A stretch of DNA of 64,000 nt from Porphyrobacter sp. (GTDB lineage: Bacteria; Pseudomonadota; Alphaproteobacteria; Sphingomonadales; Sphingomonadaceae), in assembly GCA_016125555.1 (NCBI GenBank), contig WGLN01000006.1, forward strand, positions 89,644 to 153,643. Direction: 5' to 3'. Position 1 is the first letter of the stretch. The number at the start of each line of letters is the position of its first letter. Positions 55,649 to 64,000 of the stretch are shown here, piece after piece. The notes below the pieces were generated by a model that was not told the DNA's origin, searched no databases, and worked only from the letters and a program-made list of their open reading frames with translations. Position numbers and translations under genes: made by a program.

Positions 55649-56620
55649 ATGGCGAACAGCGAAACTTCCGCAACCCTGCGCGCGATGATCTTCGAGGACG
55701 GAGCGGTGCGCGAGATCGAGGGCGACGAGGTCGCCGATTATCGCGGGGTCGGCTTCGTGTGGCTCCATGCCGAAGGCGCATTGGGCGACGGCCGAGCGGA
55801 CCTGCCGTCCTACGTGCCGCACCTCGCCGCCAATGCCCTGTTCGCCAGCGAGACCCGGCCGCGCTGCGACGAAGTCGACGAGGGCGCGCTCATCAACCTG
55901 CGCGGCAACGCGCTGGAGCCGACACGCGACAGCGACCGGCTGGTCTCCATACGCGTGTGGGTGGAAGGCAACCGCGTGACCTCGGTCAGCCGCAGACCGC
56001 TCGCCGCGCTCGGCAAGGTCGAGGCGGCGATGCGCGCCGGCCGGTTGACCGACGGCGGCGACTTCGTGTCCGCGCTCGCGCAGGCGATCAGCACCGAACT
56101 CGATCCGGAGGTCGCCGATCTCGGTGACAGGCTCGACGATTGCGAGGCCGAGATCGAGGAGGCCGACATCTACACGCTGCGCCGCCGCATCACCGCGCTG
56201 CGCTCGCAGGCGATCGCGCTGCGCCGCTTCGTCGCCCCGGACCGCGATGCACTCGCCTCGATGGCGCAGTTGCCCTTTGCCTGGATCAGCAAGGAGGATC
56301 GTCTGCACCTGCGCGAGGCGGCGGACCGCTTCGCGCGCATGGCCGAGGAGCTCGAGGCGGTGCGCGAACGCGCGGCGCTGCTCCACGAACAGCTCACCGA
56401 CCTGAGGGCCGAACTGATCGACCGCCGCTCGCTCGCGATCGCGGTGATCGCCTTCATCTTCCTGCCGCTGACCTTCGTCACCGGCCTGCTCGGCATGAAC
56501 GTGGCCGGCATCCCCTTCGCCCATGCGGATTGGGCGTTCTGGGGGGTCGTGGGGTTCTGCATGGTGATCGCGCTCCTCGTGCTGGCGTGGTTCGCGATGC
56601 GCCAATGGCTGGATGACTAG
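55649..56620 (+). CDS. zntB: CorA-family zinc transporter ZntB
   Basis: 323 residues: a large cytoplasmic N-terminal domain and two C-terminal helices with the pore signature GMNVAG (about 285-290) between them. The long central coiled coil (LRRRITALRSQAIALRRF) fits the CorA fold. GMNVAGIP favours the ZntB branch, which moves zinc, over Mg transport by CorA; that split is not certain. The ATG at 55649 is chosen; the frame upstream crosses the tRNA. The start of the histidine kinase gene overlaps its last 8 bp. Confidence 0.85.
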   Translation: MANSETSATLRAMIFEDGAVREIEGDEVADYRGVGFVWLHAEGALGDGRADLPSYVPHLAANALFASETRPRCDEVDEGALINLRGNALEPTRDSDRLVSIRVWVEGNRVTSVSRRPLAALGKVEAAMRAGRLTDGGDFVSALAQAISTELDPEVADLGDRLDDCEAEIEEADIYTLRRRITALRSQAIALRRFVAPDRDALASMAQLPFAWISKEDRLHLREAADRFARMAEELEAVRERAALLHEQLTDLRAELIDRRSLAIAVIAFIFLPLTFVTGLLGMNVAGIPFAHADWAFWGVVGFCMVIALLVLAWFAMRQWLDD

Positions 56621-59129
56621 GCTGGCGGAGCGAAAGTCTGTCCGTCGGGGCAGGCGGGAATTGCCGAAGCCGCCGTTCGCCGAAGACGATCTGTCGCAGC
56701 TTCCCCGTGACTCCTTCGCCGCGCGGCGTCATGGTGAAGCCAACCGGGAGAATGTGTTGCGACCAGAATGGCTCAGGGCCACAGGCGCCATGGCGGAGCG
56801 GATTAGCGCCTTCGACTGGGGTGCGACGCCGCTTGGGCCGATGCGCGGCTGGCCGGCGCCGCTCACGCGCACGCTCAATCTCGTGCTCGAGAGCCCCCTG
56901 CCGATGGTGCTGATCTGGGGGCGCGAACTGGTGATGCTCCAGAACGATGCCTATCAGGCGATGATGGATGCGCCCGCGGGGGCGCTCGGCGGATCGTATC
57001 TCGAAGCCTGGGGGGCGATCCGCGAGATCGTGACCCCGCAGATCGAAGAGGCCTTTGCCGGCAAGGCGATCCGGGTCGAGCGGCAAGGGTTCGACGTCGC
57101 CCAGCCGGACGGCACGATGGTGCGCCGCTTCTTCGACTATTCCTTCAGCCCCGTGCGCGACGAGCATGGCGCAGTGGCGGGACTGTTGCATTCCGGCTTC
57201 GAGATCACCTTGCGAGAAAACGCCTTCAAGGCGCTCCGCACCAGCGAGGCACGGCTGCGGGCGGCAATCGATCATGTTCCTGCAGGGGTTGCGATTCTGG
57301 ACATTGCGGGGAACTTCGTCGTCGCGAACGAGGAGTATCGCCGCTTTCTGCCCGCAGGCACAATGCCTTCGCGCGATCCCGAGCATGGATCGCGGTGGCA
57401 GGCCTGGGACGAAGAGGGGCGCCTCGTCGACCCCGAGCGCTATCCGGGCGCGCGTGCGCTGCGCGGGGAGATGGCCACCGAAGGGATGGAGTTTCTCTAC
57501 ACCGGTGAGGACGGCCGCGAAATCTGGACCAGCGTCGCGACCGCTCCGATCAAGGACGCGCGGGGTCAGGTGACCGGCATGGCCTCGGTCATCACCGACA
57601 TCACCGAGCGCAAGCGCGACGCCGAGATGCTGGCGCGCAGCGAGAAACGCAGCGCCTTTCTCCTGAAGCTCAGCGATGCGCTCCGGCCGCTCACCGAAGC
57701 AGCCGCGATGCGTCGCACCGCCTGCACGATCCTCGGCGAACAGCTCGGCGCGGACTGGGTCTATTATGTCGACTATTCGCTCGAAGAGGGCTTTGGCGTG
57801 GTCGAACAGGACTTTGCCCTGCCCGGCCTCGCCGATCTTTCGGGCTGCTACCCCGAAAAGGCGTTCCGGACCACCTTCGAACACCTCGGCGAGGGGCAGA
57901 CCTGGGTGGTCCACGATGTCCGGAACGAAGAGCGGATCGCATCGCACGAGCGGGGCTACTATGCGCGTCGCAAGGTCATCTCGTGGATCGACGTGCCGCT
58001 GCTGAAGGGCGGCAAGCTCGAGGGCATCCTGTGCGTCGTTCAGGCGCGGCCGCGCAGATGGAGCGCGGAAGAGATCGCGATCGCCGAGGAAGCTGCTGAA
58101 CGCCTGTGGGCGACGGTGCGCCGCGCCCGTGCGGAGTCCGCCCTGCGCGAAAGCGAGCTGCGCATGAAGACGCTCATCGACGGCGTCCCGCAACTGATCT
58201 GGCGCGCGCAGGCGGGCGGACACTGGATCTGGGCGAGCCCGCAATGGGAACAATATACCGGCCTCTCAATCGCGGACAGCCTCGGGCGCGGGTGGATGGC
58301 GGCGATTCACGCCGAGGATCGCGAAGCGGTCGCGCACTGCTGGGCGGAAGCCGCACGCACCGGCGCGCTTGAGGTCGAGGCGCGGATTTGCCGCGCACCC
58401 ACCGGCGAGTGTCGGTGGTACAAGATCAGGGCCACACCGGTGAGAAACGCGCAAGGGGAGGTCGTCGAATGGCTCGGCACCTCGACCGACATCCACGATC
58501 TGCGCGAACTCCAGGCGCGCCAGAGCGTATTGGTGGCCGAGTTGCAGCACCGCACCCGCAACCTCATCACCGTGGTCCGGGCGATCGGGCGCCGCACGCT
58601 TCGCAAATCGGAATCGCTCGCGGATTTCGAGCAGCAGTTCGGTCACCGGCTCGCCGCCCTGTCGCGGGTCCAGGGGCTGCTTTCGAACCTTGCAGCGGGG
58701 GAGCGGCTCGCCTTCGACGAATTGCTGCGGTCGGAACTCTCCGCGGCTGCCGCTCCGGAGGACGTGGTCGCGCTCGACGGGCCAGAAGGCATCGAACTGC
58801 GCTCAGCATCGGTCCAGACCCTCGCGCTCGCGCTCCACGAGCTAGCCACCAACGCCACCAAGCACGGCGCGCTGGCCTCGCGGCGCGGGCGCCTCGCCGT
58901 GAGCTGGAAAGTCGCCGCGACCGACGACGAGCGGCGCTTGCACGTCGATTGGCGCGAGACGGGCGTCGCGATGGAGGGCCGCGGCGATCGGAACGCAAAG
59001 GGCGGTTACGGTCGCGAACTGATCGAGCGGGCGCTACCCTACCAGCTCGATGCACGCACGAGTTTCACCTTCGCAAGCGACGGTTTGCATTGCACCATCG
59101 ACATGCCGATCCCCGTGCCCAGGGGCTGA
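56613..59129 (+). CDS. Multi-PAS/GAF sensor histidine kinase of the HWE family
   Basis: 838 residues, no membrane helix, so cytoplasmic. In order: a PAS-like domain after the DWGATPLGPMRGWP motif (about 66-210), a second PAS (about 215-335), a GAF domain (about 345-500, TACTILGEQLGADWVYYV), a third PAS (about 510-630), and the HWE kinase core with phosphoacceptor His646 (LQHRTRNLITVV) and N box ALHELATNATKHGAL. HWE kinases often feed the general stress response. No response regulator is adjacent. It overlaps zntB by 8 bp and ends 24 bp from the PYP cluster, tail-to-tail. Confidence 0.88.
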   Translation: MTRLAERKSVRRGRRELPKPPFAEDDLSQLPRDSFAARRHGEANRENVLRPEWLRATGAMAERISAFDWGATPLGPMRGWPAPLTRTLNLVLESPLPMVLIWGRELVMLQNDAYQAMMDAPAGALGGSYLEAWGAIREIVTPQIEEAFAGKAIRVERQGFDVAQPDGTMVRRFFDYSFSPVRDEHGAVAGLLHSGFEITLRENAFKALRTSEARLRAAIDHVPAGVAILDIAGNFVVANEEYRRFLPAGTMPSRDPEHGSRWQAWDEEGRLVDPERYPGARALRGEMATEGMEFLYTGEDGREIWTSVATAPIKDARGQVTGMASVITDITERKRDAEMLARSEKRSAFLLKLSDALRPLTEAAAMRRTACTILGEQLGADWVYYVDYSLEEGFGVVEQDFALPGLADLSGCYPEKAFRTTFEHLGEGQTWVVHDVRNEERIASHERGYYARRKVISWIDVPLLKGGKLEGILCVVQARPRRWSAEEIAIAEEAAERLWATVRRARAESALRESELRMKTLIDGVPQLIWRAQAGGHWIWASPQWEQYTGLSIADSLGRGWMAAIHAEDREAVAHCWAEAARTGALEVEARICRAPTGECRWYKIRATPVRNAQGEVVEWLGTSTDIHDLRELQARQSVLVAELQHRTRNLITVVRAIGRRTLRKSESLADFEQQFGHRLAALSRVQGLLSNLAAGERLAFDELLRSELSAAAAPEDVVALDGPEGIELRSASVQTLALALHELATNATKHGALASRRGRLAVSWKVAATDDERRLHVDWRETGVAMEGRGDRNAKGGYGRELIERALPYQLDARTSFTFASDGLHCTIDMPIPVPRG

Positions 59130-59153: not shown

Positions 59154-60038
59154 TCAGAACAACGGCACGAGCAACTGTGCGGATGCGGCAGGTTTGGGCT
59201 GCGGCGGGGCTGGAACGAGACGTTCGGCGCTAACCTGCGCGGAACCTCGGGTTGCGCCGCGCTGCGCCTTTTCGCTGAACACCCGGATGCGCGACAGCAC
59301 GGCGCGTTCCGCCGGGCCGGCCCTGCGTGCCTCGCGCGCCACGGCTTCGCGCATGGCGGGCGGCATCGCCACCTCGTCGACGGCGAGATCGATCATCTCC
59401 GCGATCGCGGTCCGCGGATCGGTGGCACCCGCATCGCGCAGGTAGATCGTCTGGCGGCAGGTCATGGCGAGCAGCAGGTCGCAGACCAGGCCCGTGTCGT
59501 GCTGCCCGCTGCGGTAGGACAGCCGGGCGCCTCCCTGCACGGGGCTCAGGCGCTGCGCGAGTTGAACGAGTTCGCGCTCGATCTCGGCGCCGGTGAACAC
59601 GCGCAGCGCCGCCAGCGGATCGGCAGCCGCACCCGGCACGGCCAGCAGCGCTCCGGGCCGCTGTGCGAGAGCCGCTGGAAGCCGCGCGAGATGCAGCGTG
59701 CATCCCCCTTCAGCCGCGGTAAACGCGATCTGCGCTCCGCCCTGCCCCTGAGTTTCGCTGACATTGCTCCGCAGAACCGCGCAGCCCGCGGTCGACAGGG
59801 GCAGAACAGTGAAGCCGCCGATCGCACAGGCGACGAGATCGATCACCGCCGCGAATCCGCCTTGTGCGGAACACAGCACCCCGCCCGGCTCCAGACCGCC
59901 TTCGCGCAGCGCGATGCGGCGGGCATGGGCCGAGGTCCAGATATTGCCCGCCGAGAGGATCGTCTCCCCTGCCGCGTCCACCGTCTGGAGCACCGGCGTG
60001 CCGCTGCCCTTCAGCAGCGCCTTGAACAGCGCCCTCAC
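59154..60038 (-). CDS. AMP-ligase-like protein, candidate p-coumarate activating factor
   Basis: 294 residues, well short of normal acyl-CoA ligases (390-550). The N-terminal part (about 38-85) resembles the start of such ligases (LREGGLEPGGVLCSA, AIGGFTVLPLS) and a later block (SYRSGQHDTGLVCDLLL, residues 174-190, then TIYLRD) resembles their substrate region. The ATP loop (SGTTGxPK) is absent and so is the C-terminal lid. The protein ends in a Pro/Ala/Gln tail. The GTG start shares bases with the lyase stop. In other PYP operons a p-coumarate CoA ligase is in this place; whether this one can activate the chromophore is open. Confidence 0.65.
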   Translation of the reverse strand: MRALFKALLKGSGTPVLQTVDAAGETILSAGNIWTSAHARRIALREGGLEPGGVLCSAQGGFAAVIDLVACAIGGFTVLPLSTAGCAVLRSNVSETQGQGGAQIAFTAAEGGCTLHLARLPAALAQRPGALLAVPGAAADPLAALRVFTGAEIERELVQLAQRLSPVQGGARLSYRSGQHDTGLVCDLLLAMTCRQTIYLRDAGATDPRTAIAEMIDLAVDEVAMPPAMREAVAREARRAGPAERAVLSRIRVFSEKAQRGATRGSAQVSAERLVPAPPQPKPAASAQLLVPLF

Positions 60039-61474
60039 GCGGCGGCCACCGCGTAGGCGGGCCAGGCGGCAAGCGACAGTGCTTCGGGAAGCGCGCCGGC
60101 GTGGCGCAGCAGCGCTCCGCGTTCCGCGATGAAGGCGGCACCACGGGTCAGCTCGCGGGCGATCTCGATGCGCTCGCCGAGGTTGAGCAGCGCGGCCATG
60201 CTGCCGGGCACGATGTCCTGGTTGTAGCTCTCCGCCGGGGTGGTCATATTGCGCGCCGCGACGCCGCCGGCGCGCAGCGATTGTTCGAGCGCGTTGACCA
60301 GCTGGTGGATGCCTTTGACATGGTCGCCGCGGGTCGCCTCGAGGTTCCGGGGAAGCCCCCCGCTCTGGGCAGGATCGACCAGCAGGAAGGTCTGCCGGTT
60401 CAGCACCTCGGCGCACTTGCACACCACGTCGAGCAGCTGGTCGGCGGCGGTGGCGAGCCCGGCGGTGTAGAACAGCCCGCCATGGGCAATGGCGATCGGC
60501 TCTGCCGCGTGATCGATGATCGGATTGTCCGAGACCGACAGCGCCTCGGCGACGATGCGCTCGGCGGCGAAGTGCAGTTGGGCGAGCGCGTTGCCGAAGA
60601 CCTGCGGTGTGCAGCGGATCGAATATCGCGGCTGCGGCGGGGCGTCCTGGTGGAGCGTCGCAATCTGCGCCGGGTTCCGCGCGAGAAAGGCCTCCCGCGC
60701 CCGGGCGATCCTTGCGCCCGCCTCGCGATTGCGGTGATGCGCCGGATTGATGGCGAGTGTCCCGCCCGCACAGAACTCGTCGTCGAGCCCGAGCGCAAGG
60801 CTGGCAAGCGCGGTCACCCGGCAGGCCGCGGCATGCAGCGCAAGCGTCTCGGCGAACAGCTCGACCGCCAGCGCGCTCATCATCGCGTTGGTGTTGACGA
60901 GACCCAGCACGTCGCGCGGGCCCTTGGCACCCGCGGCGCGGATCACTGGAGCGATGGCATGGGCCATCGGCACCAGATCGCCGCTCGCCCCGAGGCTGCC
61001 GTAACGCGGCACCGGAGGGAGCGCGGCGGCGTTGGAGAGTGCGATCAGCCCCGCGATGGTCTCGGGGTGGACCGCGGAATGGCCCTGCAGCGCCTTGCGC
61101 GCCTGGATGCGCAAGGCGCGGCGCACCACCCGCGCGGGCAGGGGATCTCCCACGCCGACATGCAGATAGCCGAGCAGCTCCTCCTGCTGGCGCCGCCAGT
61201 CGGCAGGATCGCGGGCGTCCTCGATATCGGCGCCGTAATAGGTGTGGATGCCATAGATGCGCCGGTCCGGGTGCTGCGCCATGAAGGCCGTCAGCGCCGC
61301 GAAGGAGGCCTGCGCCCGGTCGAGCTCGGCCTGGGTGGCTGCGAAATGCACCTGGCGCTCCCCGAGTGCATGGAGCTCCGCCATTCCCGCAAAGCCGGCC
61401 AAACCCGCGTCGGCCGCTTCGCAAGGCTCCAGCTGCCGGGACAGCTCCGCCAATCGCTGTGCTGCACCGCTCAT
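60035..61474 (-). CDS. MIO-type aromatic amino acid lyase, probable tyrosine ammonia-lyase
   Basis: 479 residues. The Ala-Ser-Gly that makes the MIO cofactor is at 163-165 (GSLGASGDLVPMAH), the active-site tyrosine region reads IYGIHTYYG (73-81), and RYSIRCTPQV, SVSDNPII and NQDIVP are the other conserved blocks. The substrate-selecting pair, His-Leu in characterised tyrosine lyases and Phe-Leu in phenylalanine lyases, is Tyr103-Leu104 here. Beside pyp it most likely supplies p-coumarate for the chromophore; a histidine lyase is less likely because no hut genes are near. It overlaps the genes on both sides by 4 bp. Confidence 0.87.
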   Translation of the reverse strand: MSGAAQRLAELSRQLEPCEAADAGLAGFAGMAELHALGERQVHFAATQAELDRAQASFAALTAFMAQHPDRRIYGIHTYYGADIEDARDPADWRRQQEELLGYLHVGVGDPLPARVVRRALRIQARKALQGHSAVHPETIAGLIALSNAAALPPVPRYGSLGASGDLVPMAHAIAPVIRAAGAKGPRDVLGLVNTNAMMSALAVELFAETLALHAAACRVTALASLALGLDDEFCAGGTLAINPAHHRNREAGARIARAREAFLARNPAQIATLHQDAPPQPRYSIRCTPQVFGNALAQLHFAAERIVAEALSVSDNPIIDHAAEPIAIAHGGLFYTAGLATAADQLLDVVCKCAEVLNRQTFLLVDPAQSGGLPRNLEATRGDHVKGIHQLVNALEQSLRAGGVAARNMTTPAESYNQDIVPGSMAALLNLGERIEIARELTRGAAFIAERGALLRHAGALPEALSLAAWPAYAVAAA

Positions 61475-62907
61475 GATCCGATCATCCCTTCGATGTTGAG
61501 AACCATCACCAGCTCTCCGCCGTTGTTGAGCACGCCCGCGATGCGCTGGCCGCCGGCATCGAAGGGCAGCGGCTTGACCCGTCCGCGGCAGATGCCGTGA
61601 ATCTCGCTGACCTTGAGCGCCAGCTTGCCCGTCTCGCCGAGGTCGGCGAAGACCACCAGGTTTTGCGCGTAATCCGCCTGCGCGCCGAACACGGACTTGG
61701 CGGTGTCGAGCAGCGAATAGAAATCGCCGTTGGCGGTGAACAGCGCCTGCGAGGCGGATTCCAGCTTGGCGTCGTCGACCAGCGAGATGAAGCTGACGAA
61801 CTGCGCCGGGATCGCCAGGGTCGAGCAATCGTGGCCGTTGAAGACCGAGAAACTCAGGTATTCGGCATTGCTGTTGAGCATGAAGTTGGATTCGATCACC
61901 AACTCGCTGCCGACACCCGGTTCCTGCGAATGGCGCACGAACAGCCCCGGGGCGAGCTCTTCGCTGGCGGCTGCGAAGCGACTGCTGCCCATGCCGTCGT
62001 CCCTGAGGAAAAAGCTCAGCCTGCGGTCGTTGCGCTCCATGCGCCAGGTCAGCGTGACATGGGCGCTCTTGCCGTTCACCTCGCGCTCGGCGGGGCTGCG
62101 CTCGATCGATTCGTCGAAAAGGTGCACCAGCCATTGCCGGATCACGCGGAAGAACAGGTCGGAGACATCGGGCGGGATGAGTTCCGAGCCGTCGGAGTTC
62201 TCCATCTTGAGCAGCGCGGTGACGCCCGATGTGGCGAGCCGCTCGACGAGTTCCGCCTCCAGCGCGGCGTGGACATCGTTGAGCTCGATGCCGACGCTGC
62301 GGTCGACGCATTCGATCGAGCGGGCGATCGCCTTGTCGAGCTTCTCGATGACCTCGCGGTCGGCGATGTGGCTGGCGAGCACCTCGCGGATGGCGTGGAA
62401 CTCCTGGAGCACCTGGTCGGCGCCGCGACCGGCCGAGGCGGTGATGCGCATCAGGCGCTTCGCCATGTGGGGGATGCGATCGACCGTGCCGAAAGGATCG
62501 GCGGCCAGCTTGAGCGTCCAGAACAGCTCCTTGCAGGTCTGCTGCGCCTCGAGCTTCTCGGCGATCTTGGAGAGCATCGAGCCGAGCGCCATGGTCATGG
62601 TGTCGGCCGCGCCCTTGAGGATGGTCTGGTACTGCATCTGGTCGTTGCAGCGCGACCATTCGTAACGGGTCGCGAGCCAGGTCAGCGGGATGTGTTTTTC
62701 CGCCTCGCTCTCGTCGCCCTCGAAGGTGAGATCGTCGAGCGCGGCGCAGATGCGTTCGCAGCGCGCGCGGTATTCTTCGGTCAGCTCGGCGAGCATCTCG
62801 GGCGTGAGGTCGGGCGTGAGCGCGACGACGTTCATCGCGCCTTGCACCTCGGCAGGGTCGAGCAGCGCGTGGCGCAGCGCCTGCACCTTGGAAACAGCGG
62901 CGTCCAT
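61471..62907 (-). CDS. CheA-like pseudokinase with CheW-like C-terminal domain
   Basis: 478 residues. No HPt motif is visible in the first 250 residues, which are helical. Residues 258-307 align by eye with the CheA ATPase: WLVHLFDESIERSPAERE takes the place of the N box (LVHLVRNSLDHGIE), with Glu266 where the ATP-binding Asn belongs, and DDGMG at 303-307 resembles the G1 box. After GVGSELVIES the usual ATP lid is missing. Residues about 350-478 look like a CheW/P5 domain (STLAIPAQFVSFISL to NNGGELVMVLNIEG). It therefore looks like a scaffold or adaptor without kinase activity. The ATG at 62907 has GGGGAG upstream. Confidence 0.72.
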   Translation of the reverse strand: MDAAVSKVQALRHALLDPAEVQGAMNVVALTPDLTPEMLAELTEEYRARCERICAALDDLTFEGDESEAEKHIPLTWLATRYEWSRCNDQMQYQTILKGAADTMTMALGSMLSKIAEKLEAQQTCKELFWTLKLAADPFGTVDRIPHMAKRLMRITASAGRGADQVLQEFHAIREVLASHIADREVIEKLDKAIARSIECVDRSVGIELNDVHAALEAELVERLATSGVTALLKMENSDGSELIPPDVSDLFFRVIRQWLVHLFDESIERSPAEREVNGKSAHVTLTWRMERNDRRLSFFLRDDGMGSSRFAAASEELAPGLFVRHSQEPGVGSELVIESNFMLNSNAEYLSFSVFNGHDCSTLAIPAQFVSFISLVDDAKLESASQALFTANGDFYSLLDTAKSVFGAQADYAQNLVVFADLGETGKLALKVSEIHGICRGRVKPLPFDAGGQRIAGVLNNGGELVMVLNIEGMIGS

Positions 62908-62937
62908 GATTCTCCCCGGTTCGGCAAGAGGGGGGTG

Positions 62938-62965
62938 GAGGAGCCGTCCGCGCGGGCGGCCCCTC
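62938..62965 (-). promoter_or_regulatory. Intercistronic hairpin between pyp and the CheA-like gene
   Basis: A 12-bp stem (one mismatch, one G-T pair) around a 4-nt loop, 13 bp after the pyp stop. No U-tract follows, so it is more likely a 3' stabilising structure or partial attenuator that keeps pyp mRNA above the downstream genes. Confidence 0.55.
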
Positions 62966-62978
62966 TCCTGCGGCAGAC

Positions 62979-63347
62979 TTACTTCTTCTTCACGAACACC
63001 CAGTTCGAGCCCGAGGCCTTGTCGCGCTTGAGGTGGATGGCGACGTTGGTGGGACGCAGCTTGTAGGTGAAGGTGTAGTTGAACTCGGCGTCGAGCTCGC
63101 CCGCCGCCACGCCCGACTGGAAGCGGCCGAAGAACAGCTTGTTGTTGGTGCAGGGGGCGATCTCGGTGAAGAAGTTGCGACCCTCGGCTGCCGCCGGGGT
63201 CACGCCGGCGAGGTCGGCCTCGTACTTGTTGTAGAGCTCGATCTTGCCCTCGTCGTCGACCTTCACGATGCCGAAATCGGCAAGGTCGGCATGTTCGCGC
63301 GACAGGGTCGCGAGGCTGGAATCGATTTCGGCGGTAATGAACGACAT
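62979..63347 (-). CDS. pyp: Photoactive yellow protein
   Basis: 122-residue PAS-fold blue-light receptor; the chromophore p-coumarate is bound as a thioester to cysteine. Against Halorhodospira PYP, the chromophore cysteine is Cys66 (IAPCTNN; Cys69), and Tyr39 and Glu43 match Tyr42 and Glu46, which hydrogen-bond the chromophore. Phe93 and Tyr95 match Phe96 and Tyr98. Thr50, Arg52 and Met100 become Ala47, Val49 and Leu97. NFFTEIAPCTNNKLFFGRF and the C-terminal WVFVKKK confirm the family. The ATG at 63347 has GAGGAGG upstream. It is the first gene of a run with a CheA-like protein, a lyase and a ligase-like protein. Confidence 0.95.
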   Translation of the reverse strand: MSFITAEIDSSLATLSREHADLADFGIVKVDDEGKIELYNKYEADLAGVTPAAAEGRNFFTEIAPCTNNKLFFGRFQSGVAAGELDAEFNYTFTYKLRPTNVAIHLKRDKASGSNWVFVKKK

Positions 63348-63693
63348 GGTATTCCTCCTCTGGATGGGTGTTCAACTCGGGTGGTGGGGGACTTCAGAAA
63401 TCCGCCATCTGCCGCGCGGGCGAAGGGGCGCGTTCGGGTTTGGCGGGTCATGCGCTCGTGCACGCTCCTTTCGCTGAACCCTGACGGTTCATGGGGACGT
63501 GTTACCCCGCGCACGTTAAGTCGGCGGCGACGCGCCCTTGGGTGGAAATACGAGCGTCGGGCCGGGCCGCGCGTCAGACTTTGCCAAGAAATGGGGCGCA
63601 TGCGCCGAGCGCCTTCGCGCCAGCCGGACGCCGCCCGCGGCTAGGCACCGCGGGGAGCCGGAGACGCTCTGGCCGCTCAGGCCCGGTCGGCGT
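63348..63693 (-). other. Intergenic region upstream of pyp
   Basis: 346 bp between the chemoreceptor stop and the pyp ATG; it should contain the pyp promoter. I see two inverted repeats (63475-63491 and ACGTG-N10-CACGT at 63497-63516), a stem CCCGCGG/CCGCGGG at 63634-63654 that may end the chemoreceptor transcript, and no convincing -35/-10 pair or gene. Confidence 0.6.
63475..63491. promoter_or_regulatory. Inverted repeat, possible operator for the pyp run
   Basis: TGAACC, five bases, GGTTCA: a perfect 6-bp dyad about 130 bp upstream of pyp. Size and spacing fit a dimeric regulator site. No known regulator is assigned. Confidence 0.4.
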
Positions 63694-64000
63694 TCAGAAC
63701 TCGCTCCAGTCGTCCTCGTCGGTTGCGGCGAGGGGCTGGGGTTTGCGCGCGAGGTTGCCGGTGACGGGGGCGGCGACGGGGCGGCGCGGGGCGGCGGGTT
63801 TGCGCGGCGGTGCCGGGCGCGGCGGTGCGGCCGGGGCGGCGAGCGCGTGGGCGCCCGTCCCGGCGGCGGCCTCGCCGACCCGGAACTGCGCGACCAGCTC
63901 GCCGAGGCGCTGCGCCTCGCTCGACAGGCTGCGCGTCGCGGCGGTCGACTGCTCGACCATCGCCGCGTTCTGCTGGGTCATGCGGTCGATCGTGCCGACC
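63694..64000 (-). CDS. Methyl-accepting chemotaxis protein (C-terminal part; start outside window)
   Basis: Only the last 101 codons are in the window. The sequence VGTIDRMTQQNAAMVEQSTA is the typical end of the MCP signalling bundle, followed by LSSEAQRLGELVAQFRV and a Pro/Ala/Arg-rich tail that ends ATDEDDWSEF. The tail ends in an acidic WSEF rather than a classical NWxTF pentapeptide, though it is similar in form and could tether a methyltransferase. Sensor domain and full length cannot be seen. It lies upstream of pyp in the same orientation. Confidence 0.88.
   Translation of the reverse strand, partial: VGTIDRMTQQNAAMVEQSTAATRSLSSEAQRLGELVAQFRVGEAAAGTGAHALAAPAAPPRPAPPRKPAAPRRPVAAPVTGNLARKPQPLAATDEDDWSEF

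Follow-up and report, generated by a model that had tools for sequence, protein, structure and literature searches.

How does a free photoactive yellow protein (PYP) hand its light signal over to the cell? The surveys of 2022 (PMC9664959) and 2025 (PMC12826048) both point to this step as a gap in knowledge, and the question is raised by a 64,000-nucleotide stretch of Porphyrobacter sp. DNA (contig WGLN01000006.1, positions 89,644 to 153,643 of the forward strand; hereafter the window). At one end of the window, the minus strand carries in transcription order the tail of a methyl-accepting chemotaxis protein (MCP) gene (last ∼100 codons), pyp, the gene of a CheA-like protein that we call CheAL, a lyase gene and a ligase-like gene, the last three overlapping by 4 bp each. 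We found that this operon is real, unusual and conserved in some Erythrobacter-like bacteria, and that CheAL, which by its motifs is a CheA derivative stripped of most of those for kinase action, is a fixed member of it, in agreement with the first-pass annotation of this DNA.

Firstly, we assessed whether CheAL and pyp stay together in other genomes. Full-length CheAL occurs in three of the 114 genomes of the genus and this PYP in exactly those three, namely the window's genome (G000), G500 and G662, an Erythrobacter metagenome-assembled genome. The first-pass annotation had made the link depend on whether CheAL homologues lie near pyp or mostly away from it: in all three genomes with visible gene context CheAL is adjacent to pyp, and pyp, CheAL, lyase and ligase-like genes stand in identical order (loci L037 in G500 and L003 in G662), about 10 of the 23 CheAL clusters being without visible context. 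For 11 of the 23, the longest contig is exactly as long as that of a PYP of the clade sharing at least 80% identity, on contigs down to 5086 bp; among the best 120 of 255 PYP matches, to which our comparison with the protein collection refers, none of the 97 less similar PYPs (51 on contigs of at least 3 kb) gives such an exact match. This matching considers one contig per 90% cluster, the longest, and G500, one of the 11, serves as its positive check, since 3303132 bp stands in both the CheAL and the PYP lists. Five of the 16 PYP-clade clusters on contigs of at least 3 kb have no contig-matched CheAL; two of these five belong to the window and to G662, for which the adjacency was observed directly. 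The CheAL copy of G662 shares 94% identity with P0011, of whose cluster it is probably a member. On the scale of the order, the PYP model was matched in 40 genomes of a 396-genome sample, 15 of them at E <= 2.7e-15. CheAL adjoins pyp in G000 and G500 among these 15. It was not seen near pyp in the remaining 13 (up to ∼8 kb on each side, some stretches being cut by contig ends), where GGDEF/EAL matches lie near pyp in four genomes, an MIO lyase in three and an MCP match ∼6 kb off in one. Lastly, PYP and CheAL distances are correlated over 12 pairs (r 0.74, reached in 0 of 10000 permutations), which argues for co-inheritance, not for contact.

Secondly, we established what CheAL has kept of CheA. 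Motif and conservation counts rest on an alignment of 19 of the 23 clusters (P0004, P0008, P0022 and P0023 were excluded, two because they end short and two because they lack a part); all 19 proteins are open, full length and 64–83% identical to the window copy. The annotation as CheA-like was right: the CheW domain PF01584 is matched by 18 of the 19 members (best E 2.2e-9) and the predicted fold matches CheA, with the P3-P4-P5 order present. Pfam is silent on the window's own copy, in which the CheW-like P5 is recognised by predicted fold only. No member matches the Hpt domain (P1, with its phosphorylatable His) at E <= 1, unlike the main CheA of the window's genome, which does match PF01627. 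The catalytic boxes of CheA P4 are named N, G1, F and G2; only the DDGxG of G1 is retained in CheAL, the N-box Asn being found in a single member of the 19, while the ATP lid and the G2 stretch are gone and P4 is shortened. CheAL thus shares with the CheA structures of Thermotoga and E. coli a predicted P3-P4-P5 layout, and differs from them in its shortened P4 and in a helical domain without clear match that replaces P1-P2. Residues 1–150, modelled alone, form a helical bundle (pLDDT 91). Within it, residues 61–150 are the most conserved part of the protein, with a mean pairwise identity of 85% and 52 of 90 residues invariant; residues 1–60, P3, P4 and P5 reach 61–64% each. We infer that this N-domain is the natural candidate for contact with PYP.

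Thirdly, the protein encoded upstream of CheAL is indeed a photoactive yellow protein. It matches TIGR02373 at E 7e-37, with 126.2 bits against an equivalog cut-off of 143.05 that is reached in only 4 of the 396 genomes of the order, and it aligns without gaps with solved PDB PYPs (residues 3–121, E 5e-29). Tyr42, Glu46 and Cys69 are retained in all 23 clusters of the clade of at least 80% identity, which also share Ala in place of Thr at position 50 and Val or Ile in place of Arg at position 52. PYP clusters at 58–73% identity (P0047–P0143) include records named Bacteriovorax, Bacteroidota, Kapaibacterium and Tepidisphaerales; such distant names among close relatives suggest that PYPs have been exchanged widely by horizontal transfer. 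The lyase was also correctly assigned to the MIO type (PF00221, E 5e-67): it retains the MIO-forming Ala-Ser-Gly, and the ASG and YSxRC stretches align with histidine ammonia-lyase, from which it differs by a Tyr-Leu where that enzyme has Ser-His. Tyrosine specificity of ammonia-lyases goes with a His-Leu selectivity pair. Since Tyr-Leu replaces Ser-His, the lyase likely acts on an aromatic substrate, probably as a tyrosine ammonia-lyase. The AMP-ligase label holds less well, as one of three orthologues matches the AMP-binding family PF00501 (E 2e-5), the window copy has no Pfam match and its alignment to an acyl-CoA ligase by hhalign is weak (probability 1.2). We read this protein as a shortened, degenerate relative of ANL enzymes with a putative role in loading p-coumarate, so that PYP would likely receive its chromophore through the lyase and the ligase-like protein.

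How does this operon compare with those already described? The survey of 984 PYPs and 113 predicted pyp operons lists in its Table 2 GGDEF, EAL, HisKA, HATPase_c, pCL, TAL and BLUF, MCP only as a fusion, and no CheA- or CheW-type gene (PMC12826048). Its main text names CheA twice, for the CheA/CheY pathway behind sensory rhodopsin transducers and for MCP-PYP fusions, and CheW nowhere. In the 2022 survey, the neighbours of PYPs include sensor-less chemoreceptors and GGDEF genes; in its main text the single mention of CheA concerns CetA/CetB, and CheW does not occur (PMC9664959). Among the papers returned by full-text searches, supplementary tables aside, titles and abstract starts point to none that describes a pyp operon with a CheA-like gene. 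The present locus resembles pyp-pcl-tal of Halorhodospira halophila and the surveyed operons in joining PYP to lyase and ligase-type genes for a p-coumarate chromophore; CheAL lies downstream of pyp, unlike the HisKA/HATPase genes of surveyed operons, which tend to be upstream (PMC12826048). The link of a PYP protein to chemotaxis recalls Ppr of Rhodocista centenaria, whose kinase domain binds CheW (PMC2993699). Ppr is a single fusion with a bilin domain and a histidine kinase, whereas here PYP is free and its candidate partner is CheA-derived, with a CheW-like domain of its own. CheAL lacks P1, as does the split-kinase protein CheA4 of Rhodobacter sphaeroides, which is cluster-bound by P5; the P4 of CheA4 still works and phosphorylates CheA3 (PMC3591291), whereas CheAL is without N-box Asn, lid and G2 box. 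What is new here is a predicted PYP-chemotaxis coupling in which the candidate partner derives from CheA and is deprived of most kinase motifs. Co-inherited with PYP, this candidate is a single, defined protein in which mutations could be directed at one strongly conserved domain.

We therefore consider that the blue-light state of PYP may be fed through CheAL, docked by its CheW-like P5, into the output of a chemosensory array, a reading whose probability we put at about one half. It starts from four genes kept together in three genomes and from a CheAL that keeps predicted P3, P4 and P5, with HPt, ATP lid and G2 gone. PYP would bind the conserved N-domain that replaces P1-P2, and CheAL would relay its state from there to the array through P5, pairing through P3 with itself or with a full CheA. 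Light on PYP would then shift the share of CheAL in the array, lowering or raising the output of CheA to CheY. In CheA, phosphorylation of P1 takes place in trans between the two subunits of the dimer; CheAL, which offers neither P1 nor a working P4, would leave a mixed CheA:CheAL pair dead. More specifically, CheAL could be a light-gated dead subunit, with PYP setting through the N-domain the number of kinase-less CheA units that enter the array. We hold this version as tentative and doubtful; if true, light would act on the kinase layer by subunit poisoning, an array input that bypasses the receptors. Should the link between PYP and CheAL be true in any form, CheAL would be a CheA-derived PYP partner, an example of a CheA pseudokinase carrying sensory input, and would lend itself to building a light switch for chemosensory arrays.

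As for the host machinery, each of the three genomes encodes MCPs and CheW-domain proteins in two chemosensory sets, the second set of the window's genome being on contig C20. FlhA was found in all three (control positive in 4 of 14 known genomes), and flagellar output is likely, though not settled. Several points weigh against coupling of PYP to an array through CheAL. FliM (PF02154) was found in none of the three genomes (control positive in 4 of 14 known genomes), although FlhA is present, which makes a motor output tentative. The P3-like hairpin (residues 131–210) has low confidence in the whole-protein model, with block means of 44–68, so that dimerisation of CheAL is weakly based; P5 has drifted, to the point that Pfam misses it in the window copy. 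A structural search with the N-domain gave no telling fold match hinting at its ligand, and the conservation of residues 61–150 could mirror a ligand other than PYP. Three contig-unmatched PYP-clade clusters (381298, 59325 and 5960 bp) are unexplained, and co-inheritance of neighbours is no proof of contact.

PYP could instead signal straight to the chemoreceptor next to it, the mode of action proposed for Leptospira PYP and for CetA/CetB, with CheAL as an extra adaptor that only steadies the receptor's array. The chemoreceptor beside pyp had been part of the first-pass annotation; an MCP tail does adjoin pyp in the window, but its standing as a fixed partner is not supported. This tail and the MCP tail that closes contig C17 on its right, before the main CheA, are identical at 303 of 309 nt, and the identity ends just past the stop codon. 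The near-identical signalling ends of the two MCP genes break the assembly (contigs C7, C17, C8 and C20), and C8 and C20 each carry a corresponding N-half at the right end. Since the C8 N-half adjoins a CheB-like gene, as in the main che cluster of G500, the C20 N-half likely pairs with the MCP tail at pyp. Both N-halves have two close hydrophobic segments and a HAMP match (below cut-off for C8), and a search for ligand-binding domains in them gave no match. A sensor-less MCP thus likely stands beside pyp in the window's strain, by elimination of contig ends, as in clade B (Leptospira), whose PYPs frequently adjoin sensor-less chemoreceptors (PMC9664959). However, this pairing of MCP halves is itself inferred, and the missing ligand domain is no special mark of the pyp-side MCP, because the N-half assigned to the main CheA shares it. 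Moreover, G500 and G662 have CheAL without an MCP beside pyp; the gene upstream of pyp encodes a 107-aa coiled-coil protein in both, which places the MCP outside the conserved cassette. Unlike in clade B, it is thus the CheA-like gene that is conserved here, and not the MCP. Given also the 346 bp between the MCP stop and pyp, we rank the MCP as a neighbour and not as a demonstrated member of the pyp transcript. We regard direct action of PYP on it as unlikely. The 107-aa protein (L037:8769-9092; L003:7058-7378) has repeated LEAQxVxLYxEK-like motifs, and a homologue is encoded elsewhere in the window's genome (G000 C17:51902-52240).

Alternatively, CheAL may have left the array and now assist PYP maturation, as a helper or scaffold for chromophore loading by the lyase and the ligase-like protein. 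The overlaps that join the CheAL, lyase and ligase-like genes would suit such a role, and loading may need help from a ligase-like protein so short and barely recognised by family models. P5 nevertheless keeps its CheW-like fold, with the PF01584 matches described above, and other PYPs are loaded with pCL and TAL activities alone (PMC12826048). We consider this role rather unlikely. It is quite improbable that CheAL serves a non-flagellar output, such as c-di-GMP enzymes or the second chemosensory set on C20. In its favour, a gene with GGDEF/EAL-type sequence is divergent to the pyp operon in G500, FliM was not found and each of the three genomes has a second CheW-domain/MCP set; yet the GGDEF/EAL-type gene has no match in L003, the cassette is flanked in the window by an HWE kinase gene and the MCP gene, and FlhA is present. 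Finally, that CheAL is a decaying relic without function, as its lost kinase motifs might suggest, is hardly credible and already disfavoured by 19 open, full-length proteins of this degree of identity and by the invariant residues of the N-domain.

Re-examination of the window confirmed the order and coordinates of the five minus-strand genes and the 4-bp overlaps given in the first-pass annotation.

Table 1. Features of the pyp operon and its upstream neighbour in the 64-kb window.
Feature	Position	Strand	Remarks
3' end of MCP gene	63694..64000	-	tail ends DDWSEF; stop at 63694; gene cut by contig end
pyp, photoactive yellow protein, 122 aa	62979..63347	-	Cys69, Glu46 and Tyr42 equivalents retained
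pyp-CheAL intergenic gap, 71 bp	62908..62978	-	GC-rich hairpin, also present in both relatives
CheAL, 478 aa, CheA-derived P3-P4-P5 protein	61471..62907	-	without HPt, N-box Asn, ATP lid and G2 box
CheAL helical N-terminal domain, residues 1-150	62458..62907	-	predicted structure
MIO-type aromatic amino acid lyase, 479 aa	60035..61474	-	likely tyrosine ammonia-lyase role
AMP-ligase-like protein, short and degenerate, 294 aa (GTG start)	59154..60038	-	

The GC-rich hairpin between pyp and CheAL is found at all three loci (window 62908-62978; L003:7935-8000; L037:9765-9825). Compared with shuffled sequences, it is clearly stronger only in L003 (z -2.4), with z -1.2 in L037 and z -0.05 in the window; different amounts of the two proteins could be set by it. 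Beyond the operon, a PAS/GAF HWE histidine kinase gene (window 56613-59129) is convergent with it and ends 24 bp from the ligase-like gene.
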